From contig NZ_FOOT01000001.1 of the NCBI RefSeq assembly GCF_900113285.1, positions 186,001 through 250,000 of the forward strand: DNA of 64,000 nucleotides, read 5' to 3'. The notes beneath the pieces are model-generated. The model ran no database searches and was not told the DNA's origin. It was given only the letters and a program-made list of their open reading frames with translations. Every line of letters begins with the position of its first letter. Positions within the stretch are counted from its first letter, which is position 1. Below, in pieces: positions 395-11,881 of this stretch. A program made the translations under genes and the position numbers. The stretch comes from Pontibacter chinhatensis. GTDB lineage: Bacteria > Bacteroidota > Bacteroidia > Cytophagales > Hymenobacteraceae.

Positions 395-674
395 CGCATG
401 GTCTATACGATACGCCAACACCATGTATACTTAACTAACTAAACACTAAACTAATCCTCTCTAAGTCGGCTTTGCGCCAAAGCTGTGTCAGAAGTACGGC
501 ACCTCAACAGTTCACTCTCGACCTCTTTCACAGCTTTGGACTTTTGTAGCTCCTTGTCTCACCTTAAACTACTGCAGCAAAGCATTTTTCTATAGCTAAC
601 CAGGCATTCGCTTTTTGGGCTGACCTTGTTAATTCTACAGTAGCAAAAGTCCGGGTTTTATATGGCCTGTGCAC
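395..674. other. Spacer with a long-range inverted repeat; possible structured RNA
   Basis: No credible gene lies between the regulator terminator and the ccoI promoter. It does hold a perfect 11-base inverted repeat, CCAAAGCTGTG at 477-487 and CACAGCTTTGG at 529-539, enclosing 41 bases and followed by ACTTTTG. This could be a small RNA or leader structure, but no promoter or homologue was recognised, so it is only flagged. Confidence 0.3.
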
Positions 675-739
675 TGACAAGGATCAACTTCGAAGCTGAT
701 TATTGTCATCATTTGCGCAGGGGGCGGCATCTACCTTTG
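675..739 (+). promoter_or_regulatory. Low-oxygen-type promoter of ccoI with tandem Fnr-like sites
   Basis: The distal site TGACAAGGATCA (675-686) and proximal site TGATTATTGTCA (697-708) have centres 22 bp apart. A perfect Bacteroidota -7 box TACCTTTG lies at 732-739, with its last base 36.5 bp from the proximal centre. That puts the proximal site near -41.5 (class II activator position) and the distal site near -63.5. Together the two sites form a 34-bp imperfect palindrome centred on TTCGAA. The spacing is identical at three other promoters in this window. Confidence 0.75.
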
Positions 740-766
740 CAGAAACCATAAAAACCGACAATTGAG

Positions 767-3175
767 ATGGAAGCCGCACTCCAAACCAATGTTCAGACCT
801 GTTACCATTGCGGGGACTCCTGCGTGGAAGAAACGATTCTAGCGCATGATAAGACGTTTTGCTGCGATGGCTGTAAGACCGTTTATGAGCTTTTAGAAGA
901 GAACAACCTCTGCAACTACTATAACCTGGAAGAGAACCCTGGCATTACCGGTAAAAAGCCGGTGGCAGAAGCCCGTTTTGCCTATCTGGATGATGCCGGC
1001 GTGGAAGCCCAGCTGATCAACTTCAAGAGCGATAACATTGCCAAAATCACGTTTTACATTCCGCAGATGCACTGCAGTTCGTGTATCTGGCTGCTGGAAA
1101 ACTTGTTTAAGCTTAACCCGGGCATCTCGGAGACAACTGTAAACTTCCTGCGCAAAGAAGTATCGCTAACCTATTTCCCGCAGAAAACGACCCTCCGAGA
1201 GGTGGTGACCCTGCTGGCCCGCATTGGGTATGAGCCGGAAATCACACTAGCCAACACCGACGGTAAGAAAACCAGCAAGCCCAGCCGCACCATTATCTAT
1301 AAGTTAGGCATTGCGGGTTTCGCCTTTGGCAACGTCATGCTGCTGGCCTTCCCAGACTACGTGGACTTTACCCAGGGACTGCAGCGTACGTTCGGCTCCT
1401 TCTTTGGCTACCTGAGCATTCTCTTGTCGATACCGGTGTTTTTCTACAGTGCCCGTGGCTTCTTCACATCGGCCTGGGAAGGCATCAAACAGCGCATGGT
1501 CAACATCGACCTGCCTATTTCCACCGGTCTGCTGGCGCTTTTCTTGGTCTCTATCTTCGACATCGTCACAGCGCGTGGCCCCGGCTACCTCGACTCGTTT
1601 ACAGGCCTGGTGTTTTTCATGCTGATTGGTAAATATTTCCAGCAGCGCACCTTTGATAGTCTTTCGTTTGATCGCGATTATACTTCCTACTTCCCGGTTT
1701 CGATTACCGTGCTTAAGGAGAATGGCGAAGAGTCTTCCACGGCTGTACGAAACCTGAAGGTGGGCGACCGCATCCGTATTCGTAACCAGGAGCTTATACC
1801 TGCCGATGCGATGCTGCTGCACGGCCGTGCCATGATAGACTATAGCTTTGTATCTGGAGAGTCGGAGCCAGTGGAGAAGGTAGTGGGCGAAGTCATTTAT
1901 GCCGGTGGCCGTCAGATAGGAGAGAGCATCGAACTGGAAGTTGTGAAAGAGGTATCGCAAGGCTACCTGACCCAGCTCTGGAACGATACGGTCTTCTCGA
2001 AAGACGAAAAGCAGAACCTGCATACCTACTCCAACATCGCGGGTAAGTGGTTTATCATTGTGACCATGATGGTAGCGGCCGGCGCGCTTATTTACTGGGT
2101 GCCACGAGATATGGACATGGCCATGCGCGCCTTTACCTCGGTGCTTATCATTGCCTGCCCCTGTGCACTGTCGCTGGCAACACCCTTTGTGCACGGGCAC
2201 ACCATGCGGGTGTTTGGACGCAACAAATTCTACCTCAAGAATACTGGGGTAGTAGAGCGCCTGGCTAAGATAGACACCGTTGTGTTCGACAAAACTGGCA
2301 CCCTGACCGAGCCGAGCGAAGCAGAGCTTACTTATACCGGAAAACAACTCTCAGAGGCAGAGCAGCGAGCGGTGCTGTCTGTGATGCGCCACTCCACGCA
2401 CCCGCTCAGCCAGCGCATCAGCGAGCAGTTAAAAGGCACCTCATCTCCGGTAACCGGCTTCCAGGAATTTGCTGGCAAGGGTCTGGTTGGCGAGGTGAAC
2501 GGCATGCTGGTACGGGTCGGCTCTGCAGCATACTTAGGGGTGCCAGCTGAGAAACAAAAAGACACGCTCAAGACAACAGTGTATGTTTCTATCGATGGCA
2601 AGGTACTAGGCTACTATACTTTCTACAACGTGTACCGTGAAGGGGTGCAGCAAGTATTGCAGGAGCTGGGCGATAAAAAGATTGCCGTACTCTCTGGAGA
2701 TAACGACCACGAAGAAGCCCGCCTGAGAGAGCTGCTTGGAAAGGAGGCCGAACTAAGCTTTAACCAATCGCCGGTGCAGAAGCTGGAGTACATTCAGCAA
2801 CTGAAAGCCCGGGAAAACCGCCAGGTACTAATGGTGGGGGACGGTCTGAACGATGCGGGCGCTCTGAAGCAAAGCGACGCAGGTATTGCCCTGAGCAACA
2901 GCGTCACCAACTTCTCGCCTTCCTGCGACGCCATTTTAGATGCCAGTGCGTTCGACAGGCTGGGAACTTTCCTCAACTTCTCCAAAACGACCATGACCCT
3001 CATCCTATTGACCTTCGCGGTTTCGCTGGTATACAACGTGATAGGGTTAACGATGGCGGTTATGGGCCTATTCACTCCCATTGTGTCTGCCATTCTGATG
3101 CCGATAAGCACGCTCAGCGTGATGACCTTCGCCACACTCTCGGTGAAGTATGCTGCCAGAAAAGCTGGATTGTAA
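767..3175 (+). CDS. ccoI: Copper-translocating P-type ATPase of cbb3 oxidase assembly (CcoI/FixI type)
   Basis: This is an inner-membrane P1B ATPase of 802 residues that supplies copper for cbb3 oxidase maturation. The N-terminus has a Cys-rich metal-binding segment (C12-x2-C15-x3-C19, then an FCCDGC motif) of the type found in FixI/CcoI. An HMA-like domain with MHCSSC at residues 101-106 follows. The transmembrane CPC metal site is at 464-466 and the phosphorylated aspartate of DKTGT is D508. A STHP (HP-locus) motif and GDGLNDA complete the P-type signature. The neighbour ccoS and the downstream ccoNOP genes support the oxidase-assembly role over general copper efflux (CopA). Expression is expected from the tandem-site promoter 28 bp upstream. 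Confidence 0.93.
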   Translation: MEAALQTNVQTCYHCGDSCVEETILAHDKTFCCDGCKTVYELLEENNLCNYYNLEENPGITGKKPVAEARFAYLDDAGVEAQLINFKSDNIAKITFYIPQMHCSSCIWLLENLFKLNPGISETTVNFLRKEVSLTYFPQKTTLREVVTLLARIGYEPEITLANTDGKKTSKPSRTIIYKLGIAGFAFGNVMLLAFPDYVDFTQGLQRTFGSFFGYLSILLSIPVFFYSARGFFTSAWEGIKQRMVNIDLPISTGLLALFLVSIFDIVTARGPGYLDSFTGLVFFMLIGKYFQQRTFDSLSFDRDYTSYFPVSITVLKENGEESSTAVRNLKVGDRIRIRNQELIPADAMLLHGRAMIDYSFVSGESEPVEKVVGEVIYAGGRQIGESIELEVVKEVSQGYLTQLWNDTVFSKDEKQNLHTYSNIAGKWFIIVTMMVAAGALIYWVPRDMDMAMRAFTSVLIIACPCALSLATPFVHGHTMRVFGRNKFYLKNTGVVERLAKIDTVVFDKTGTLTEPSEAELTYTGKQLSEAEQRAVLSVMRHSTHPLSQRISEQLKGTSSPVTGFQEFAGKGLVGEVNGMLVRVGSAAYLGVPAEKQKDTLKTTVYVSIDGKVLGYYTFYNVYREGVQQVLQELGDKKIAVLSGDNDHEEARLRELLGKEAELSFNQSPVQKLEYIQQLKARENRQVLMVGDGLNDAGALKQSDAGIALSNSVTNFSPSCDAILDASAFDRLGTFLNFSKTTMTLILLTFAVSLVYNVIGLTMAVMGLFTPIVSAILMPISTLSVMTFATLSVKYAARKAGL

Positions 3176-3257
3176 TGATTAATGAATAATCAGTAGTGAC
3201 TCTTCCAATCTTGGTCTTTCATCACTCTCAACTCATAACTCTTAATTCTCAACTAAC
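3176..3257. repeat. AT-rich spacer with small palindrome between ccoI and ccoS
   Basis: TGATTA (3176-3181) and TAATCA (3187-3192) form a small hairpin overlapping the end of ccoI. A pyrimidine-rich stretch follows that shares wording with the ybbA-ybbP spacer at 32407-32538. No promoter box was seen, so ccoI and ccoS are probably co-transcribed. Confidence 0.4.
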
Positions 3258-3461
3258 ATGTATATTATATTCTTAATGATAGCTATAAGCGTCACGGTAG
3301 CCGCCTGTTTCCTGGGCGCCTTTCTCTGGGCAGTTCGTTCCGGCCAGTACGACGATGATTATACGCCCGCCGTACGCATGCTTTTCGAGAACGACACGGA
3401 GCAGCAGGATACCAAGCAGCAGAAAAAGGGAAGCAAGCTTTACCCTGAAGCTAAAACCTGA
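3258..3461 (+). CDS. ccoS: cbb3-type cytochrome oxidase assembly protein CcoS
   Basis: This is a 67-residue protein with one N-terminal membrane segment (about residues 3-24) followed by W-A-V-R-S-G-Q-Y-D-D, the typical CcoS pattern of a membrane helix then a W...GQYDD motif. CcoS is needed to insert the cofactors of CcoN. The gene lies 82 bp after ccoI in the same direction, as in many cbb3 clusters. The short C-terminal tail is hydrophilic and rich in Q and K. The family call is confident despite the small size. Confidence 0.9.
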   Translation: MYIIFLMIAISVTVAACFLGAFLWAVRSGQYDDDYTPAVRMLFENDTEQQDTKQQKKGSKLYPEAKT

Positions 3462-3703
3462 GAACCCATTCACCCTAAGTCAAAATCATACTTTCCGCCT
3501 GCTGCTTTACTAACCCACAGGCTGGCCGGAAGTGCTGTACCCAAGAGTTAAAGGCTTGCAGAGGCACGGGCATGCTTCAGGTATAGTACCACAAGTAGAA
3601 TTTATACTATGGTCTGTGTGCATGTGGCTTACTGACAGAAGTATATAGTTAAAACCTAAAGTATGAGTTAAGGGCAGGTTGTGCTGGCTATAGTTCGCGC
3701 AAC
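3462..3703. other. Non-coding spacer before the ccoNO promoter
   Basis: No gene, strong hairpin or recognisable RNA was seen in this stretch. It runs from the ccoS stop to the distal Fnr-like site of the next promoter. Confidence 0.5.
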
Positions 3704-3768
3704 TGATATCAATCACCTGCTAAAGTGACTTACATCATCTTTTAAAAAGGCATTCCTGCCCAATTTTG
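3704..3768 (+). promoter_or_regulatory. Low-oxygen-type promoter of the ccoNO operon with tandem Fnr-like sites
   Basis: The distal site TGATATCAATCA (3704-3715) and proximal site TGACTTACATCA (3726-3737) are 22 bp apart centre to centre. The -7-like box CAATTTTG (3761-3768, five of six consensus bases) ends 36.5 bp from the proximal centre. The same flanking words (ATCACCTG after the distal site, TCATCTTTTAA after the proximal site) recur at the ccoG promoter. A start near 3773 would give a leader of about 115 bases. Confidence 0.75.
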
Positions 3769-3889
3769 AATCCTGAAATAACACAGTAATCTGATCTCTT
3801 ACCTTTCTGTCAGGCAGCACACTGTGACTTCATAGAGTACAATAATTAACTAGGACACAAACAATTAAACAAAACGGAGGACACCGCAC

Positions 3890-6079
3890 ATGTCAACTAA
3901 TGCAGCTGAAGTCTTGGAAAATGCGCCCGACCGGGTTGTGCCGAAAGGCAAGGACCGGGGCGTGACCGACACGTTCTTTTATGACAATAAGATCGTTCGG
4001 GATTTTGGTATCGCCACCGTGTTCTGGGGCGTAGCCGGTATGCTGATAGGCGTCATCATCGCCTTCCAGCTGGCTAACCCAGACATGAACATGGGCACCC
4101 AGTATACCACCTTTGGCCGGGTTAGGCCGCTGCACACTAACGCCGTTATTTTCGCGTTTGTGGGCAACGCCATTTTTATGGGTGTTTACTACTCGCTGCA
4201 GCGACTTTGTAAGGCCCGCATGTATTCAGACCTCCTCAGCAAGATTCACTTCTGGGGCTGGCAGCTGATTATTGTGGCCGCCGTTATTACCCTGCCGCTG
4301 GGTATAACCTCCTCTAAAGAGTATGCCGAGCTGGAGTGGCCTATTGATATTGCTATTACCCTTATCTGGGTAGTGTTTGGCTGGAACATGTTCGGCACTA
4401 TTTCCAAACGCCGCGAAAAGCACATGTACGTAGCCATCTGGTTCTACATCGCTACCTTCTTAACAGTAGCCGTACTGCACATCGTAAACTCCTACGCGCT
4501 GCCGGTTGATTTCTTTAAAAGCTACTCTGGCTACGCCGGGGTGCAGGATGCGCTGGTGCAGTGGTGGTATGGCCACAACGCAGTGGCGTTCTTCCTGACC
4601 ACGCCGTTCCTGGGCCTGATGTACTACTTCCTGCCTAAAGCAGCTAACCGCCCGGTATACTCTTACCGCCTGTCCATCATTCACTTCTGGTCCCTGATCT
4701 TTATTTACATCTGGGCCGGGCCGCACCACTTGCTTTATACTTCGCTGCCTGACTGGGCGCAGTCGCTGGGTGTGGTATTCTCAGTGATGCTGATTGCTCC
4801 GAGCTGGGGTGGTATGATTAACGGCCTCTTGACACTGCGCGGTGCCTGGGATAAGGTGCGCGAGGAGCCGGTGCTTAAGTTCATGGTGGTGGCTATCACT
4901 GCCTACGGTATGGCTACCTTCGAGGGCCCGATGCTGTCGCTGAAGAACGTAAACGCCATTGCCCACTTTACTGACTGGATTGTAGCACACGTGCACGTGG
5001 GTGCCCTGGGTTGGAACGGTTTCCTGACCTTTGCCATACTTTACTGGCTGTTCCCACGCATCTATAAAACGGAGCTATACTCTAAGAAGCTGGCCAACAC
5101 CCACTTCTGGCTTGGCACGCTGGGCATCCTGTTCTACGCCATTCCGATGTACTGGGCCGGCTTTACACAAGGCCTGATGTGGAAACAGTTCACTGCTGAA
5201 GGTACGCTTCAGTACTCTAACTTCCTGGAGACCGTGCTGCAGATTGTGCCAATGTACTACCTGCGCGGTATCGGTGGTATCCTTTACCTGAGTGGTGTAT
5301 TTCTGATGGTATACAACCTGTACAAAACGGCTAAGTCTGGCAGCTTGGTAGCCAACGAAAGAACCGAGGCTCCTGTGATAGTGGTGTCTGTATCTAAAAA
5401 CGCCGGTCACTGGCACTCCTGGATTGAGAAGCGCCCAACACAGATGGCTATCTGGGCAACCGTTGCCATCCTGATTGGCGGTCTGGTAGAGTTCATCCCT
5501 GCCTTCGTGATTAAATCCAACGTGCCGACGATTGAGAGCGTGAAGCCTTATACTTCGCTGGAGTTGCAGGGGCGTGACCTGTACATCAAAGAGGGTTGCG
5601 TGAACTGCCACACACAGATGGTACGTCCGTTCCGTTCCGAGACAGAGCGATACGGAGAGTATTCGAAAGCGGGCGAGTTCGTGTATGACCACAACTTCCT
5701 GTGGGGTTCCAAGCGAACCGGTCCGGACCTTCACCGCGTGGGTGGCAAGTACCCGCACAGCTGGCACTACCACCACATGATGGACCCAACTTCCATGTCG
5801 CCAGGCTCTATTATGCCAGCTTACCCCTGGTTGTTCGAGCAAGACATCGACCTAAGCTCAACAGAAGCCAAGCTGAAAACCCTGCAAAAGCTGGGCGTGC
5901 CTTACGAGGATGAGTACATCGCCAATGCTAACCAGGAGCTGATGGCACAAGCCACCGGAATTACGGAGCAACTGGCAAAAGAGGGCATCGAGGTGAAACC
6001 AGAGGCCGAGATTGTGGCCCTGATTGCTTACCTGCAGCGCCTGGGTACCGACATTAAGGTGAAAGAAGTAACGGAGTAG
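3890..6079 (+). CDS. ccoNO: cbb3-type cytochrome c oxidase, fused catalytic subunit I and monoheme subunit II (CcoNO)
   Basis: This 729-residue fusion combines CcoN and CcoO. Residues 1 to about 490 form the heme-copper oxidase core with many membrane helices and the heme- and copper-ligand histidine regions RPLHTNAV, WYGHNAVAFF, GPHHLLYT and VAHVHVGALGWNG. The rest is CcoO: a membrane anchor near residues 510-535 and then a cytochrome c domain with the heme site CVNCH at 570-574, followed by TQMVRPF and a MMDPTSM segment. The complex reduces oxygen to water at low oxygen tension and pumps protons. Fusion of the two subunits is common in Bacteroidota; there is no stop or frameshift between the parts. 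The ATG at 3890 follows CGGAGG. Confidence 0.96.
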   Translation: MSTNAAEVLENAPDRVVPKGKDRGVTDTFFYDNKIVRDFGIATVFWGVAGMLIGVIIAFQLANPDMNMGTQYTTFGRVRPLHTNAVIFAFVGNAIFMGVYYSLQRLCKARMYSDLLSKIHFWGWQLIIVAAVITLPLGITSSKEYAELEWPIDIAITLIWVVFGWNMFGTISKRREKHMYVAIWFYIATFLTVAVLHIVNSYALPVDFFKSYSGYAGVQDALVQWWYGHNAVAFFLTTPFLGLMYYFLPKAANRPVYSYRLSIIHFWSLIFIYIWAGPHHLLYTSLPDWAQSLGVVFSVMLIAPSWGGMINGLLTLRGAWDKVREEPVLKFMVVAITAYGMATFEGPMLSLKNVNAIAHFTDWIVAHVHVGALGWNGFLTFAILYWLFPRIYKTELYSKKLANTHFWLGTLGILFYAIPMYWAGFTQGLMWKQFTAEGTLQYSNFLETVLQIVPMYYLRGIGGILYLSGVFLMVYNLYKTAKSGSLVANERTEAPVIVVSVSKNAGHWHSWIEKRPTQMAIWATVAILIGGLVEFIPAFVIKSNVPTIESVKPYTSLELQGRDLYIKEGCVNCHTQMVRPFRSETERYGEYSKAGEFVYDHNFLWGSKRTGPDLHRVGGKYPHSWHYHHMMDPTSMSPGSIMPAYPWLFEQDIDLSSTEAKLKTLQKLGVPYEDEYIANANQELMAQATGITEQLAKEGIEVKPEAEIVALIAYLQRLGTDIKVKEVTE

Positions 6080-6101
6080 TAAACCTGACAAAGGACTGAG
6101 T

Positions 6102-6139
6102 GACAAAAGACAAAAGAGAAAATTCTCTGGTCTTTTGTC
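6102..6139 (+). other. Hairpin in the ccoNO-ccoQ spacer
   Basis: GACAAAAGAC (6102-6111) pairs with GTCTTTTGTC (6130-6139), and the inner AGAGAA/TTCTCT extends the stem. No T-run follows, so it is unlikely to be a full terminator. It may be an mRNA processing or stability element that sets the ratio of CcoNO to the downstream subunits. The word GACAAAAGAC recurs upstream of hemF. Confidence 0.45.
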
Positions 6140-6169
6140 CTCTGTCCCAAGGTCGCAAATTCTAAAGAA

Positions 6170-6364
6170 ATGTATAAGAACGTTTTGCAAGCCATAGAAG
6201 GCATCGAAATATACCCGATTATCTCGTTTGTCATCTTCTTCCTGTTCTTTCTGGGCTTGATTCTATATGTCATCCTGATGGACAAGAAGTACGTGCAAAC
6301 CATGAGCAGCCTTGCCTGTACCGACGAAAACGAAGACACCACCACTGAATACGCAAGACAATGA
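6170..6364 (+). CDS. ccoQ: Small membrane protein, CcoQ/FixQ-like
   Basis: This 64-residue protein has a single membrane helix at about residues 18-38 and a short charged tail. It sits between the catalytic subunit and ccoP and its stop overlaps the ccoP start (ATGA, 6361-6364), exactly where CcoQ is normally encoded. CcoQ stabilises the interaction of CcoP with the core. Sequence similarity to classical CcoQ is weak by eye, so the name rests mainly on position, size and topology. Confidence 0.72.
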   Translation: MYKNVLQAIEGIEIYPIISFVIFFLFFLGLILYVILMDKKYVQTMSSLACTDENEDTTTEYARQ

Positions 6365-7566
6365 TCGCTGTAAAGAAATTACTTGGTAAAGGCAGTCTGG
6401 GCCTCGCAGCCGGGCTGCTGCTGATGGGGGCGACAAACGCCCAGGCACAGGACGCCGTGGCAGGAAAGGCCGTGTTTGACGCGAACTGCGCCGTGTGCCA
6501 CAGCATTGATGCAGACGTGGTTGGTCCGGCACTGAGGGATGTGCATGAGCGCAGGGGCGATGAGTGGTTGGCCAAGTTCATCTCCAACTCGCAGGAGATG
6601 GTACAGGCCGGCGATAAGGATGCGGTAGCGGTGTTTGAGAAGTTCAACAAGATGCCGATGCCTGCCTTCAACACCTCGCTTTCTGAGGGGGATATCAGCA
6701 ACGTAATTGCCTATATAAAAGAGGCAAGTGCTGCTCCAGTTGCAGCAGCTGTTGAAGAGCCAGCTGCTGCCGATGCCGCTGCTCCTGCTGTAGCCGCTGA
6801 GCCGGCCGAAGTAGCTTTCCTGGACCTGCCTCCGGTGCTGCTGTTCACCTTCGCGCTGTCCGCTGCCATTATTGTGCTGATGGTGCTGGTGGTGGTGCTC
6901 TTGTTCCGCCTCTTCATCCCGATGCTGGGCAACTCGATTTATGATGAAGACTTCCGCAGCTCCTTCGCAGGCCGTGTGCTGTTCCTGCTGCGCGGCGATG
7001 CGACGGTTGTGACGGGTAAAGCCAAGGACCACATCCACTCAGACCACGACTTCGACGGCATTCAGGAGTATGACAACGACCTGCCTCCATGGTGGAAAGC
7101 CCTGTTCTATGTAACCATCGTGTTTGCGGTGGGCTACATGCTGCACTACCACGTGTTTAAGACCGGCGCGCTGCAGACCGAAGAGTATGAAATGGAAATG
7201 CAGCAGGCCGCATTGCTTGCCGCCAAAAATGCGGAAGATCCTAATGCTGTAACCAACTACGAGGTGCTGACAGACGCTGCGGCCCTGGAGTCTGGCAAGA
7301 GCATCTACACGGCAAACTGTGCTGCCTGCCACGGGGCGGAGGGCCAGGGTACGGTAGGGCCAAACCTGACAGACGAGTACTGGTTGCACGGTGGCGATGT
7401 GAACGACATCTTCAAGACGGTTAAGTTTGGTGTGCCGTCCAAAGGCATGGTGCCATGGCAGGGTAAACTCACCAAGGACCAGATGCTGGAAGTGTCCAGC
7501 TACATCCTGAGTCTGCAGGGAACCAACCCGGCAAATGCCAAAGAGCCGCAGGGCGAAAAGATGTAA
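6361..7566 (+). CDS. ccoP: cbb3-type cytochrome c oxidase diheme subunit III (CcoP) with unusual domain order
   Basis: This 401-residue protein starts with a signal-like segment ending near A-Q-A-Q. A first cytochrome c domain follows (heme site CAVCH at 43-47), then an Ala/Pro-rich linker and a membrane helix at about 157-182. The segment normally found at the CcoP N-terminus, D-L-P-P-W-W-K followed by a membrane helix, starts only near residue 238. One cytochrome c domain comes after it (CAACH at 320-324). Standard CcoP has the WW-helix first and both hemes behind it. Here the heme count is normal but one domain is moved to the front with its own anchor. It delivers electrons from periplasmic donors to CcoO and CcoN. 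Translation is coupled to the ccoQ-like gene by an ATGA overlap. Confidence 0.92.
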   Translation: MIAVKKLLGKGSLGLAAGLLLMGATNAQAQDAVAGKAVFDANCAVCHSIDADVVGPALRDVHERRGDEWLAKFISNSQEMVQAGDKDAVAVFEKFNKMPMPAFNTSLSEGDISNVIAYIKEASAAPVAAAVEEPAAADAAAPAVAAEPAEVAFLDLPPVLLFTFALSAAIIVLMVLVVVLLFRLFIPMLGNSIYDEDFRSSFAGRVLFLLRGDATVVTGKAKDHIHSDHDFDGIQEYDNDLPPWWKALFYVTIVFAVGYMLHYHVFKTGALQTEEYEMEMQQAALLAAKNAEDPNAVTNYEVLTDAAALESGKSIYTANCAACHGAEGQGTVGPNLTDEYWLHGGDVNDIFKTVKFGVPSKGMVPWQGKLTKDQMLEVSSYILSLQGTNPANAKEPQGEKM

Positions 7567-7585
7567 TCATTGCAGATGCTAAAGT

Positions 7586-7630
7586 ATAAGTATGGCAGGC
7601 CTTTCTCCGGAAAGCGCCTGCCATACTTAT
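7586..7630 (+). terminator. Strong hairpin terminator after ccoP
   Basis: A 15-base perfect outer stem (7586-7600 with 7616-7630) continues inward through CTTTC/GAAAG to a TCCG tetraloop, with one unpaired C. The outer ends carry the window-wide AAGTAT/ATACTT word. It closes the ccoNOQP transcript before the separate ccoG promoter. Confidence 0.75.
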
Positions 7631-7644
7631 TTACACCTGTCTAC

Positions 7645-7709
7645 TGATGATAATCACCTGGCTTTATGACATAAGTCATCTTTTAAGATAGGCGGAATTT
7701 GGAATTTTG
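7645..7709 (+). promoter_or_regulatory. Low-oxygen-type promoter of ccoG-ccoH with tandem Fnr-like sites
   Basis: The distal site TGATGATAATCA (7645-7656) and proximal site TGACATAAGTCA (7667-7678) have centres 22 bp apart. The -7-like box GAATTTTG (7702-7709) ends 36.5 bp from the proximal centre, the same geometry as at ccoNO, ccoI and usp. The start codon of ccoG is about 88 bases beyond the expected start site. Confidence 0.75.
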
Positions 7710-7801
7710 TGGAGTCAGCAACATGCTCTTTCAGCATCTGATTTTCAGACTTTTTAACCTTTATACAGGCAGGAATAATATCCGCACAAATTACCACTGC
7801 C

Positions 7802-9205
7802 ATGGCAATTAAAGCAAAACCTACCGATGAGTTTCGGGACCACATCTCTACTGTGGATGAAGAGGGTAAACGCATTTGGGTGTACCCTAAAAAGCCGAAA
7901 GGCAAACTATACAACTACCGCAAGTATGTAAGCTACCTGCTGCTGGCGCTGCTGTTTGCAGGGCCGTTTATCAAAATAAACGGGCTGCCGCTGCTCATGC
8001 TTAATGTGGTGGAGCGCAAGTTCGTTATTTTCGGGGTGCTGTTCTGGCCGCAGGATTTCTTCATTCTGGTGCTGGCTTTCCTCACGCTTGTTGTCTTTAT
8101 CATACTTTTCACGGTGGTGTACGGCCGCGTGTTCTGCGGATGGGTCTGCCCCCAGACCATCTTCATGGAAATGGTCTTCCGCCGCATAGAGTATGCCATC
8201 GAAGGAGACTATACCAAGCAGCGCGCGCTGGATAAAATGCCTTGGAACGCGGAAAAGATTCTCAAAAAGGGCTCCAAAATCAGCATTTTTCTGCTGATAT
8301 CCTTCCTCATCTCCAACCTGTTTCTGGCCTATATTATCGGGGTAGACGAGCTTAAAAAAGTAATTCTGGATGGGCCGCTGGAGCATAAGGCCGGGTTTGG
8401 TGCCCTGCTGCTGTTTACCGGGGTGTTTTTCTGGGTGTTTGCCTGGTTCCGGGAGCAGGTGTGTACCATCGTTTGTCCGTACGGCCGACTGCAGGGAGTA
8501 ATGCAGGACAAAAAAACCGTGGTGGTGGCTTACGACTATACCCGTGGCGAGCCGCGCGGCAAGTTGCGCAAAAACCAGGAGCGCACCGAGGGCGATTGCA
8601 TCGATTGTAACCAGTGCGTGCAGGTTTGTCCTACGGGCATCGACATCCGCAACGGGGCGCAGCAATTGGAGTGCATCAACTGCACGGCCTGCATCGACGC
8701 CTGCAACGACATCATGCGCATGATCGACAAGCCGGAAGGGCTGATACGCTACGAATCGGAGGAGGCGCTGGAGACGGGTAAGAAGTGGACTTTCTTTACA
8801 AACCGCGTGATGGGCTATACGGCTGTGCTGGCTATACTTCTCACGGCGCTTACTACGCTGCTGCTCACCCGCGACGAGGCTGAGGCGACCATTCTTCGTA
8901 CGCCGGGGCAACTGTACCAGAAAGCAGAGAACGGTCAGATCAAGAACCTTTACAACATCTCCGTGATCAACAAAACAAACCACGAGATGCCGCTTACCCT
9001 GAAGCTGCTGGACAAGGAGGGCACCATTAAGGTGGTGGGCAACACGCTTATACTTCCGGCACAGGGTATTGTAGAGGGGGTATTCTTTGCCGAGATAGCC
9101 CAAAAGGAGTTGAAGGGCATGAACTCAGAGATAGAGATTGGGGTGTTTAACGGCGAGGAGCTGATTACCTCTACCGATACCAAGTTTCTCGGGCCGGCCA
9201 ACTAA
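7802..9205 (+). CDS. ccoG: Cytochrome c oxidase accessory protein CcoG (FixG/RdxA)
   Basis: CcoG is a membrane polyferredoxin thought to reduce copper for cbb3 assembly. The 467 residues include several membrane helices and the motif C-G-W-V-C-P. A second motif, C-P-Y-G-R-L-Q, follows in a later helix. Two [4Fe-4S] ferredoxin clusters come next: C266-x2-C-x2-C-x3-C-P and a second C-x2-C-x2-C-x3-C set about 25 residues later. The C-terminal 100 residues form an Ig-like domain outside the membrane, as in FixG. The gene starts its own transcription unit together with ccoH and the SafE-like gene. Confidence 0.95.
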   Translation: MAIKAKPTDEFRDHISTVDEEGKRIWVYPKKPKGKLYNYRKYVSYLLLALLFAGPFIKINGLPLLMLNVVERKFVIFGVLFWPQDFFILVLAFLTLVVFIILFTVVYGRVFCGWVCPQTIFMEMVFRRIEYAIEGDYTKQRALDKMPWNAEKILKKGSKISIFLLISFLISNLFLAYIIGVDELKKVILDGPLEHKAGFGALLLFTGVFFWVFAWFREQVCTIVCPYGRLQGVMQDKKTVVVAYDYTRGEPRGKLRKNQERTEGDCIDCNQCVQVCPTGIDIRNGAQQLECINCTACIDACNDIMRMIDKPEGLIRYESEEALETGKKWTFFTNRVMGYTAVLAILLTALTTLLLTRDEAEATILRTPGQLYQKAENGQIKNLYNISVINKTNHEMPLTLKLLDKEGTIKVVGNTLILPAQGIVEGVFFAEIAQKELKGMNSEIEIGVFNGEELITSTDTKFLGPAN

Positions 9206-9257
9206 GAAATTATAAAACCCTCTTAAAGGGATACAGAAAGTATAAACAAACATCGAG

Positions 9258-9728
9258 ATGAAAACCGCACAAAAAAATAATAGCTTTACCCTTTGGCCCT
9301 ACATGATTGTGGTGTGCATGGTGAGTTTCATGGGCTACATAGCGCACTTCGTGTACCAGGCCATGAACCAGGATGTAGACCTGGTAAGCAAGGATTACTA
9401 CGCGCAGGAAATTAAGTACCAGGACCAGATTGAGCGCGTACGGCGTACGCAGGCGCTGGGTGATGTGATGCTCAACTACAAAGCCGGGGACGAGGCCATA
9501 CTTTTGCAGATGCCGGCTACGTACCAGGATATGAACCTGAGCGGCACCATTACGCTGTTTCGCCCTTCTGACGACAAGCTGGACAAGCAATTACCGCTGC
9601 AGCTGGGCCGCGACCACAGCCAGCTATTGGAGGTAGCAGACCTGGAGAGCGGGCTCTGGAAGGTGCGCGTTAGCTTCAGCGCCAACAACGAGGATTATTA
9701 CACCGAGAAAACGATACAAATTAAGTAG
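9258..9728 (+). CDS. ccoH: cbb3 oxidase assembly protein, FixH/CcoH family
   Basis: This 156-residue protein has an N-terminal membrane helix (about residues 12-33), then the characteristic D-L-V-S-K-D-Y-Y motif followed by a basic helix and a beta-rich periplasmic domain. CcoH helps mature the cbb3 complex together with the copper ATPase. The gene lies 52 bp after ccoG and 2 bp before the next gene, consistent with one operon. Confidence 0.9.
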   Translation: MKTAQKNNSFTLWPYMIVVCMVSFMGYIAHFVYQAMNQDVDLVSKDYYAQEIKYQDQIERVRRTQALGDVMLNYKAGDEAILLQMPATYQDMNLSGTITLFRPSDDKLDKQLPLQLGRDHSQLLEVADLESGLWKVRVSFSANNEDYYTEKTIQIK

Positions 9729-9730
9729 CC

Positions 9731-10462
9731 ATGATCTGGGCTGGTTTTCTCTTCGGACTTTTAGGCAGTTTCCATTGCGTCGGGATGTGCGGCCCGATAG
9801 CCATGGCCTTACCATTTGGCAGGAGCAGCGGCTGGCGCTATTATGCTGGCCGGCTCCTGTACAATGGGGGGCGCTTGGTAACCTACGCTTTGCTAGGCGC
9901 GCTGGCAGGTGCCTTTGGGCAATCGCTGCAGTTGGCGGGGCTACAGCAGGTAGTCTCCATCATTTCAGGATTGCTCATACTTTTCTTTCTGGTTGCCCCA
10001 GCCGCCTTTAAGGGCAGGGCAGGGGCCATGCTGGGCACCGACAAAGCCGTGGTTTGGGTGCGACGTAAGCTCGGCTACTATTTTGGGCGCGACAACCTAG
10101 GCGCGCTCTTTATGGTAGGGTCGCTGAACGGGCTGCTGCCATGCGGCTTTGTGTACATCGCGCTGGCCGGCGCCATCAGCGCACCGGGCATACCTGGTGC
10201 TATGCTGTACATGGCCTTATTCGGTCTGGGTACTTTCCCGCTTATGTTTCTTGTCTCGCTCTCGGGCAAATTTATCAGCCTAAAGTTAAGGGGTACCTTT
10301 AACAGAATAGTGCCTTACGTGGGCATGGCCTTAGCCATACTTTTTATCGTGCGTGGATTAGGGTTGGGCATCCCATACCTGAGCCCCAAGGTAGTGCAGA
10401 CAACGGGGCATACTACAGAGATGAGCTGTTGCACCAAGCCAGGCACGACCGCGCAAAAATGA
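9731..10462 (+). CDS. SafE/TauE (UreH-like) family membrane protein of the cbb3 cluster
   Basis: This 243-residue protein has about six membrane helices. It starts with G-L-L-G-S-F-H-C-V-G-M-C-G-P, the hallmark of the sulfite-exporter/UreH-like family found in cbb3 assembly clusters. The internal motif N-G-L-L-P-C-G-F-V-Y fits the same family. Members have been linked to copper or metal handling for cytochrome oxidase assembly, but the transported substrate is not established. The short Cys-containing tail (E-M-S-C-C-T-K-P) could bind a metal. Its TGA stop is also the first half-site of the Fnr-like box of the next promoter. Confidence 0.82.
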   Translation: MIWAGFLFGLLGSFHCVGMCGPIAMALPFGRSSGWRYYAGRLLYNGGRLVTYALLGALAGAFGQSLQLAGLQQVVSIISGLLILFFLVAPAAFKGRAGAMLGTDKAVVWVRRKLGYYFGRDNLGALFMVGSLNGLLPCGFVYIALAGAISAPGIPGAMLYMALFGLGTFPLMFLVSLSGKFISLKLRGTFNRIVPYVGMALAILFIVRGLGLGIPYLSPKVVQTTGHTTEMSCCTKPGTTAQK

Positions 10463-10524
10463 CAAAAGTCACTTTTGCGGCTGACATTGCTCAGCACCTG
10501 CAATATTAAGTTGGCGTAATTTTA
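10460..10524 (+). promoter_or_regulatory. Low-oxygen-type promoter of the usp gene with tandem Fnr-like sites
   Basis: The distal site TGACAAAAGTCA (10460-10471) is a perfect inverted repeat. The proximal site TGACATTGCTCA (10482-10493) has one mismatched half. Their centres are 22 bp apart. The -7-like box TAATTTTA (10517-10524) ends 36.5 bp from the proximal centre, matching the other three promoters. The distal site overlaps the stop codon of the preceding gene. Confidence 0.7.
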
Positions 10525-10570: not shown

Positions 10571-11467
10571 ATGAAGCAACTACTGGTACCTGTACAGTTT
10601 GATGATGCGAGCGGGAAGCTAGTTTCCTATGCCGGATCGCTGGCCAAGGCAATGGGAGCGGAACTGGTGCTGCTCTACAACACCGGCACCACTACGCTGA
10701 CCTTCACGCAGCAGAGCCGCGCCATACAGGCGCTTCGCACGTTTGCTGATCACCACTTAAACAGGTATAACCAGACGTGTTTCAAGCAGTTTGAGTGTCT
10801 AGTAAAGCCTGGGATGCTGCACGAAAGTATAAAAAGCGTGGTGCAGGATTATGCAGTGGACATGGTGCTGATGCACGCCCTGCCGGTAGCGGAGCACAAG
10901 CAGGCAGACAATGACCACGCTGCTGCCATCATGCACCTGGTGGATGTGCCTGTGATGGTTCTGCCCGAGGGCAAAGACTACCAAAAGCTGATGCACCTGG
11001 TCTTCGCAACAGACTTTACCGACCGCGACCCCAAGGTACTGCAGCGCATCCTGGCCTTTGCCACGCAGGCTAAAGCAAAACTCATGCTGGTACAAGTTTA
11101 TACTTTGGCAGATAAACCGCAGCTCAGCATTATGAACCAGGCCATGCGGGAAGTAGAGGCGCTGCTCAACAGCAAGAAGGTAAGCGTAAGGCTGCTGGAG
11201 GAAGAGGACGTGCTGGAAGGCATCAGCGACTTTGCAGAAAGGGAGGGAGCCGATATGCTGCTAATGGCGACCCAGGACAATTACCTGATGCAGCGCCTTT
11301 TCAGCAACAATTACCTCAAAACTAAAGCGTACCATACACAAATTCCGTTGCTCACCTTTAGGCAGGTAAAACGCAAGCCCTGCTTCGGATGCTGCGCCAA
11401 CTGCAAAAGCAAAACCAAGCAAGAGGCAACTCCGGGTTTAGTGACTTTGGACGATTTTAAAGTATAA
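10571..11467 (+). CDS. Tandem universal stress protein (UspA family) with Cys-rich tail
   Basis: The 298 residues form two Usp folds in tandem (about 1-140 and 143-270). Each has the expected opening beta strand (LLVPVQFDD and LVFATDFTD). After the second domain comes a tail with the pattern C-x2-C-C-x2-C followed by K-S-K-T-K. That tail is unusual and could bind a metal or be redox active. Usp proteins bind nucleotides and support survival under energy or oxygen limitation. Location behind an Fnr-like promoter directly after the oxidase assembly genes fits a role in low-oxygen stress. The exact biochemical function is unknown. Confidence 0.88.
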   Translation: MKQLLVPVQFDDASGKLVSYAGSLAKAMGAELVLLYNTGTTTLTFTQQSRAIQALRTFADHHLNRYNQTCFKQFECLVKPGMLHESIKSVVQDYAVDMVLMHALPVAEHKQADNDHAAAIMHLVDVPVMVLPEGKDYQKLMHLVFATDFTDRDPKVLQRILAFATQAKAKLMLVQVYTLADKPQLSIMNQAMREVEALLNSKKVSVRLLEEEDVLEGISDFAEREGADMLLMATQDNYLMQRLFSNNYLKTKAYHTQIPLLTFRQVKRKPCFGCCANCKSKTKQEATPGLVTLDDFKV

Positions 11468-11515
11468 ATGTAGGTAGCTATCTGCAAGTAGTTGTGTGTC
11501 TTCGCTTATAAGGAA

Positions 11516-11881
11516 ATGCTGAAGAGAGCGATTGAAGAAGGAAAGCTACAGGTACAACAGCGCTGCTCAAGAGCGGGTACCTGCCTGTACAGAGCGGGTC
11601 AACCAACGGAGCGCTTTTACCTGCTGCTTGAGGGAGTGGCAACGTTAAGTATACCAAACCTGCCGCACGACACGCTCGTAGCGCAGGGGAATTTAATAGG
11701 AATTCAGGATCTGCTGAAAGAGGAGCACAGCCACACGGCTATACTTGCCGAAGACGCCAAATTTGTCGAGATACCGAAGCAGGAGCTGTTGAGAGCCATC
11801 CAAACCATGGCGCCCTTGCGGTTGTACCTGATGAGGCTCATGAGCAAACAGCAACACCTGAGCCCGCTGGCATATGAATAA
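11516..11881 (+). CDS. Single-domain cyclic-nucleotide-binding-fold (Crp-like sensor) protein without DNA-binding domain
   Basis: About 121 residues match the Crp/Fnr effector beta-barrel: Y-R-A-G-Q-P-T-E-R-F-Y-L-L-L-E-G-V-A, then G-N-L-I-G-I-Q-D-L-L. The frame ends soon after the position of the dimer helix, so there is no winged helix. ATG 11516 directly after AAGGAA is preferred over an in-frame TTG at 11492. It is 48 bp behind usp and probably in its transcript. It could be a stand-alone sensor or a decoy partner of the Crp/Fnr regulator. Alternatively it is a regulator that lost its DNA-binding half; the frame is clean and no remnant of the missing half was seen downstream. Confidence 0.72.
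   Translation: MLKRAIEEGKLQVQQRCSRAGTCLYRAGQPTERFYLLLEGVATLSIPNLPHDTLVAQGNLIGIQDLLKEEHSHTAILAEDAKFVEIPKQELLRAIQTMAPLRLYLMRLMSKQQHLSPLAYE

Follow-up and report, generated by a model that had tools for sequence, protein, structure and literature searches.

In class II promoters of Escherichia coli, a dimer of Crp or Fnr is centred about 41.5 bp before the transcription start, and upstream dimers near −61 can also act. Promoters of Bacteroidota carry a box of the TAnnTTTG kind. Here, we analyzed a window of 64,000 nucleotides from Pontibacter chinhatensis (C17:186001-250000 of a 5.07 Mb genome, G000), in which four promoters of a cbb3 oxidase island carry pairs of palindromic TGAY-N4-RTCA sites at a fixed distance from a TAnnTTTG-like box. 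With a probability of roughly 0.8, this paired element is a two-dimer Crp/Fnr-type activator site for low-oxygen genes, the activator in this organism being an Fnr-type protein, a response regulator in which a receiver is fused to Crp (REC-CRP), or both. The initial annotation had described such a fixed tandem geometry as unusual among Fnr regulons; to our knowledge this is so, since the titles and abstract openings of the open-licence PMC literature that was searched showed no such case and do not name the paired operator, although full texts could still mention it.

The arrangement resembles the class II promoters of E. coli in having a dimer site beside the polymerase box, but differs from them by a second dimer site, fixed at exactly 22 bp in the majority of the promoters examined below, by a TAnnTTTG box in place of the −10 element and by the lack of a conserved −33 element. 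With the FixL-FixJ-FixK control of fixNOQP in rhizobia (see PMC7888657), it shares a kinase, a response regulator and a Crp-type activator linked to a cbb3 oxidase; unlike that system, the receiver and Crp-type parts are fused here in one protein, with no separate FixJ and FixK, and the operators are paired. FixL is a haem-binding PAS kinase; the kinases found here contain PAS domains, and any haem binding by them is hypothetical. Within the same phylum, the Crp-family regulator BT4338 of Bacteroides also has a palindromic site, but the excerpt of PMC3878776 gives another consensus (wwwTATGTTnTAnAACATAwww, one single 22-bp palindrome) and another gene set, that of sugar genes. HcpR, a Crp/Fnr-family regulator of anaerobic electron-transport genes that is reported from Bacteroides as well, has Hcp genes as its main targets and differs by its TTGTGA-like sites in D. 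vulgaris, no fixed paired sites being described in the excerpt of PMC545781. For another Bacteroides regulator, MalR, a matrix was applied to metagenome-assembled genomes (MAGs) of Bacteroidota and Ignavibacteria (excerpt of PMC8510549).

Motif scanning of the window, with the boxes located by hand, gave the following elements:

675-686, + strand, distal site TGAC-N4-ATCA of the ccoI promoter
697-708, + strand, proximal site TGAT-N4-GTCA of the ccoI promoter
732-739, + strand, −7-like box TACCTTTG of the ccoI promoter, a perfect TAnnTTTG (whole element with 0 mismatches)
3704-3715, + strand, distal site of the ccoNO promoter, exact match
3726-3737, + strand, proximal site of the ccoNO promoter, exact match
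3761-3768, + strand, −7-like box CAATTTTG of the ccoNO promoter, 1 mismatch
7645-7656, + strand, distal site of the ccoG promoter, exact match
7667-7678, + strand, proximal site of the ccoG promoter, exact match
7702-7709, + strand, −7-like box GAATTTTG of the ccoG promoter, 1 mismatch
10460-10471, + strand, distal site of the usp promoter, its first bases overlapping the 3′ end of the DsbD_2 gene
10482-10493, + strand, proximal site of the usp promoter, one half-site being CTCA (one mismatch)
10517-10524, + strand, −7-like box TAATTTTA of the usp promoter, 1 mismatch

The four pairs proposed by the initial annotation are thus present, three of them exact (675/697, 3704/3726, 7645/7667) and one with a single mismatch (10460/10482). 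The spacing of 22 bp from start to start and the 36.5 bp from the proximal centre to the end of the box were both recovered in all four promoters, the latter distance being compatible with a centre near −41.5 of the predicted start. The proposed TAnnTTTG box is perfect at ccoI, but is one base off at ccoNO, ccoG and usp. In the window, 4 pairs with at most two mismatches were found against 0.09 expected by chance. Across the whole 5.07 Mb genome, exact pairs occur only before ccoI, ccoNO and ccoG (backwards control, 0), and one-mismatch pairs at four places, the usp pair among them. The other three lie before a proline dehydrogenase, in the interval between a PAS kinase and an unassigned protein of 604 aa, and close to a gene that looks by eye like a short-chain dehydrogenase; their boxes are poor and they are not claimed as promoters. 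At two mismatches in total, paired-promoter matches at C4:427870, C13:778745 and C17:895967 are possible targets or chance occurrences. The minus strand of the ccoI pair (window 644-708) also has a one-mismatch box, which would send a transcript back towards the Fnr-type gene but could be due to chance.

Conservation of the pair before the cco genes of relatives, a test set beforehand, was analyzed in 80 loci chosen solely by CcoNO similarity; these are the best 80 of at least 594 and are therefore biased to close CcoNO relatives, the closest found being from Pontibacter (91-94% identity). The single site occurred 382 times in these loci, compared with 55-113 times for six permuted palindromes, and exact pairs numbered 39 at 22 bp, no other distance up to 120 giving more than 3. 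When up to two mismatches in the sites and one in the box were tolerated, 163 distinct paired promoters (spacing 22, box gap 23) were identified in 62 of the 80 loci, 37 of them exact in their sites, whereas seven permuted motifs gave 0 each; allowing three mismatches raised these figures to 188 and 0-2, respectively. Both distances are sharply defined: scanning the spacing from 14 to 55 yielded at most 11 promoters at every value other than 22 bp, and scanning the box gap from 14 to 33 at most 8 at every value other than 23. The outcome that the initial annotation had named as speaking against it, a pair not conserved before the cco genes of relatives, was not borne out.

The element therefore has a palindromic site with TGA/TCA half-sites at the fixed distance from a polymerase box that characterizes class II promoters. 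When 62 promoters of cco genes and usp (4 of them from the window), selected for the pair and not for the box, were aligned without gaps, the box appeared at a single fixed position, and no conserved −33 element was visible. The paired element is symmetric; among 176 of them, a box at gap 23 was present on one side or both in 152 and on both sides in 10, no other gap giving more than 4 on the opposite side, and elements lie between divergent genes in, for example, L146, L103 and L120. A shared helix face is insufficient to account for the spacing, because the 14-55 scan of the 80 loci gave 0 promoters at both 32 and 33 bp, where a second peak would have been expected. The simplest reading of the fixed 22 bp would be direct contact between the dimers.

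Mismatches in the 163 promoters were unevenly distributed, with 43 in the distal site (25 + 18) and 148 in the proximal site (98 in the left half-site, 50 in the right), suggesting that the distal site is a strong anchor whose occupant assists the neighbouring proximal dimer. A T preceded TGAY in only 11, 9, 23 and 11 of 98 cases at the four half-sites, with A taking this place in 67 of 98 cases at the outer half-site of the proximal site, so that the element does not follow the FNR operator TTGAT-N4-ATCAA, which has a T before TGA. The two-dimer operator that the initial annotation proposed as linking oxidase, assembly genes and Usp hence stands as a Crp/Fnr-type site at class II distance with a geometry kept rigidly in relatives, but its classic TTGAT half-site is absent.

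In the mechanism that we propose, one dimer would occupy the class II place beside RNA polymerase, just upstream of the TAnnTTTG box, and a second would directly abut it about two helical turns (22 bp) further upstream. At this fixed distance the dimers would touch and assist each other's binding. The well-conserved distal site would serve as the anchor holding the proximal dimer, which has the weaker inner half-site and would contact the polymerase. The element would in this way turn on the cbb3 oxidase, its assembly genes, Usp and other low-oxygen genes.

Among 296 sampled genomes of the phylum, the element (paired sites and box, at most two mismatches in all) was present in 46, and its backwards control in 2. 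Chance or base composition as the source of the pairs is refuted by this control together with the permuted motifs, and we regard it as practically negligible. Matches occurred in 36 of the 140 genera sampled; of the 46 genomes, 39 were among the 73 of the same class or nearer and 7 among the 223 others, and six of these seven had a single match and one (G271) had 15. The element is not tied to cbb3, since 5 of the 10 own-class genomes without a ccoN match carry it. Of eight genomes whose loci bear the titles Ignavibacteria, Melioribacteraceae, Calditrichota or Neomarinimicrobiota, four also matched, although MAG titles may be wrong. Two genomes were rich in matches: G099 had 31 paired-promoter matches, and G297 (locus L034), a MAG titled Ignavibacteria, had 17, perhaps a large regulon.

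Downstream genes were collected from 70 loci, either pattern-chosen (L098-L127) or taken around cco, Fnr-type or REC-CRP genes and matches (L132-L171). The 73 paired promoters led to 46 distinct downstream proteins, the window's ccoI included; 21 promoters had no downstream open reading frame in place, and the remainder were repeats or unfit. In their Pfam profile, for which 25 of 39 families were listed, COX1 and the E1-E2 ATPase came up 6 times each, Usp and the metal-binding ATPase domain 5 times each, FixO 4 times, Hsp20 3 times and FixS twice, with NrdD, glutamyl-tRNA reductase (GlutR), FixH, ADH, flavodoxin and CBS found singly. A radical SAM protein, HemN by eye, was also found once. 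This mix fits oxygen limitation as the probable signal. By analogy only, it resembles the hypoxia regulon of mycobacteria, which is rich in Usp and Hsp20.

The genes of the island around the four promoters are:

1-318, + strand, Fnr-type Crp-family regulator, C-terminal part (HTH_Crp_2, 8.8e-19; whole gene L081:2114-2818, 234 aa)
767-3175, + strand, ccoI-like copper P-type ATPase (P-type ATPase, HMA and metal-binding domains; gene name from context)
3258-3461, + strand, ccoS (TIGR00847)
3890-6079, + strand, fused ccoN-ccoO (NF011053, TIGR00780, TIGR00781)
6170-6364, + strand, ccoQ-like small membrane protein, named from its position, without family match
6361-7566, + strand, ccoP (Pfam FixP_N and cytochrome c domains; TIGR00782 under its cut-off)
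7802-9205, + strand, ccoG (TIGR02745)
9258-9728, + strand, ccoH (Pfam FixH)
9731-10462, + strand, DsbD_2 family membrane protein (DsbD_2 family match)
10571-11467, + strand, universal stress protein, usp (Pfam Usp)

The gene directly after usp (window 11492-11881) encodes a small protein that has a cNMP-binding domain but gave no match to an HTH.

The protein encoded in part at 1-318 has the Crp fold and a Crp-type HTH. Its gene lies directly upstream of ccoI in the window genome and in near relatives (L003, L004), within about 1 kb of ccoI in G150, G273 and G126, and about 7 kb from the cco genes in G271. The AlphaFold2 model (pLDDT 86) matches holo-FNR of A. fischeri with a TM score of 0.83-0.84, and also 2gau, a structural genomics entry from P. 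gingivalis. In 22 aligned sequences (L081:2114-2818 and 21 relatives), C8, C11 and C110 are present in 21 and C57 in all 22; with L145b left out, all four are invariant in the remaining 21. While sharing the fold of FNR from A. fischeri and E. coli, the protein lacks the third N-terminal cysteine, which faces a serine in the alignment with A. fischeri FNR, and the paired element is without TTGAT. C8, C11 and C110 face A. fischeri cysteines that we take to be cluster ligands. Relative to the four cysteine places of E. coli FNR, three are kept and C57, in the beta-roll, is invariant instead. The set formed by C-x2-C, C57 and C110 is possibly a changed iron-sulphur ligand set. C57 may nevertheless be structural and not a ligand, because L145b keeps it without the N-terminal cysteine pair.

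The second candidate, REC-CRP, is encoded at C17:796543-797592, about 0.6 Mb from the cco island. Domain scanning revealed receiver, cNMP-binding and Crp HTH domains in one 353-aa protein of this kind, and the protein of the window genome is 50% identical to its Hymenobacter counterpart. Its neighbours in the gene run (L085:2532-6962; G000:C17, about 796.5-801.0 kb) encode a PAS kinase, a lone receiver and a receiver-kinase, and 27 REC-CRP-like open reading frames (ORFs) of 342-384 aa, recognized by length and homology, were counted in the 80 cco loci, P0001 alone having been scanned with Pfam. A gene identified by eye as hemA adjoins the run, and a one-mismatch pair with a poor box lies upstream of it (L085). 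A general pair-driven self-regulation of the kinase/REC-CRP operon was not supported: of the 37 start points considered across 35 loci, only a few showed both site and box in fair form, and in the window genome the box is poor.

To relate both proteins to the element, a threshold of E 1e-45 was set for REC-CRP, with scoring limited in most genomes to the top 26 first-look candidates. The Fnr-type call required a match that began no later than residue 12, in a frame 220-290 aa long; the search with the Fnr-type protein scored all its candidates and revealed REC-CRP proteins as well. In the 73 own-class genomes, the element was associated with REC-CRP (32 of 43 genomes with it, 7 of 30 without; Fisher 3e-5). 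Twenty-four genomes combined the element with REC-CRP and no Fnr-type match, six with the Fnr-type protein alone and eight with both. Outside family f7, the element was found in every own-class genome encoding either regulator (34/34: 5/5 with both, 23/23 with REC-CRP only, 6/6 with the Fnr-type only), compared with 1 of 10 encoding neither. A candidate activator of the Crp/Fnr family is thus present in the same genomes, a co-occurrence and not proof of binding. Within f7, the element was present in 3 of 12 genomes with both regulators, 1 of 3 with REC-CRP only and 0 of 14 with the Fnr-type only, and no genome had neither.

Family f7 (the labels are those of the tool, and Flavobacteriaceae is a guess) stands apart by a single-site variant. 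In eight of its cco loci (L132-L138, L140), one site with box gap 23 and no 22-bp partner was found at 8/8 ccoNO and 7/8 ccoI promoters; these one-site promoters are mostly TATGAYAAATRTCATA-like. In f7 genomes without the paired element, REC-CRP loci (12 loci, 11 genomes) also showed single sites with a box, and one weak pair. Promoters of this kind can do without the second site, given that the f7 promoters examined have only one. The class II site may accordingly be seen as the core, and the distal dimer as an addition probably kept or lost by lineage. A clean rule by which single sites belong to the Fnr-type protein and pairs to REC-CRP was rejected: within f7 it fits G174 and G025, but REC-CRP loci of 11 other f7 genomes are single-site, and Fnr-only genomes outside f7 are paired.

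The initial annotation had named the protein at 1-318 as the probable regulator. It is indeed Fnr-like and one of two candidates, but REC-CRP is encoded as well. That the binder is this Fnr-type protein, acting as an iron-sulphur oxygen sensor in two homodimers, is less likely than not: the position of its gene beside ccoI here and in several relatives, its four near-invariant cysteines, its resemblance to holo-FNR, and the six own-class genomes (as well as G271, of another class) that have the element and the Fnr-type protein with no REC-CRP match all speak for it, but 24 of the 73 genomes carry the element and REC-CRP without an Fnr-type match, none of the 14 f7 genomes with the Fnr-type alone has the paired element, and G174 and G025 of f7 show pairs beside REC-CRP and single sites at the cco promoters by the Fnr gene. 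The converse, in which REC-CRP is driven by PAS histidine kinases and its phosphorylated receivers may bridge the dimers, has about the same likelihood. It draws on the presence of the gene here in a run with kinases, on the similar ORFs in many cco loci, on the association across the 73 genomes and on f6, where the element occurs in the one REC-CRP genome and is absent from five without REC-CRP. Bridging is nevertheless unneeded in the six own-class genomes with the Fnr-type alone, the REC-CRP loci of the pair-free f7 genomes are single-site apart from one weak pair, the gene is remote from the cco island in the window genome, and the f7 contrast alone is weak (4/15 vs 0/14, p 0.10).

It is conceivable, and we propose it tentatively, that the element is shared by both regulators, so that a phosphorelay and an iron-sulphur sensor would converge on a single promoter design. 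The recognition helix has E in 37/37 and R in 36/37 sequences at two places common to both kinds, each kind alone co-occurs with the element, and the window genome is among the 8/73 that have both regulators and the element; the shared binding is putative, however, and nine f7 genomes have both regulators and no paired element. Two stricter schemes were rejected. Receiver bridging is not a requirement, as G150, G017, G076, G111, G194 and G273 have the element and no REC-CRP at E 1e-45, and neither is a mixed pair with one dimer of each regulator, given the same six genomes and the 24 REC-CRP genomes without an Fnr-type match. Two dimers of one protein are likely enough, because 20 element genomes have just one Crp-family match at E 1e-16 with the Fnr-type query (15 REC-CRP, 5 Fnr-type).

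Several observations weigh against the paired element being a two-dimer activator site for low-oxygen genes. The initial T of the FNR consensus is missing from the half-site, in f7 only one site stands at this box distance in the cco promoters examined and in REC-CRP loci, and the three non-island one-mismatch pairs have poor boxes at the set distance on either strand (2-5 mismatches). At the threshold used, the element is absent from 18 of the 80 loci (L010, L024, L026, L027, L028, L035, L038, L039, L042, L045, L046, L048, L050, L063, L066, L068, L073 and L076), some cut by contig ends and some not; L048 and L063 have fewer than 600 bases upstream of ccoN. Among the targets, 21 of 73 paired promoters had no downstream ORF in place with a simple ORF caller, the cco share is inflated by the choice of loci around cco genes, and tRNA_m1G_MT, 2-hydroxyacid dehydrogenase, BON and Beta-Casp say nothing for oxygen. 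As to the regulators, the genomes with neither are mostly from f6 and f11 (7/10), five of the ten lack a ccoN match and they are not independent; weaker Crp homologues also exist in many genomes, including some of these.

Taken with these points, the paired element is neither an artefact nor a plain FNR regulon. Judged by sequence, it represents a variant form of Crp/Fnr class II control, not encountered in the literature searched, that is conserved through much of its own class. A possible, if speculative, picture is that of one rigid tandem operator used across much of Bacteroidota and recognized by two sensors of different architecture, one being an Fnr-type protein with shifted cysteines and the other a receiver-Crp fusion; the sensor would have been exchanged or doubled while the geometry was kept, and the 22-bp dimer contact would make the switch cooperative. 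Little work seems to exist on how oxygen controls genes in Bacteroidota outside the gut, a large group of soil and water, the literature searched having yielded almost nothing. The 65-bp signature provides a testable promoter code that would predict low-oxygen genes from sequence in many genera. It names two candidate regulators, suggests that two dimers in fixed geometry can persist when the sensor changes, and offers a clean system in which to test whether neighbouring Crp-type dimers activate cooperatively.

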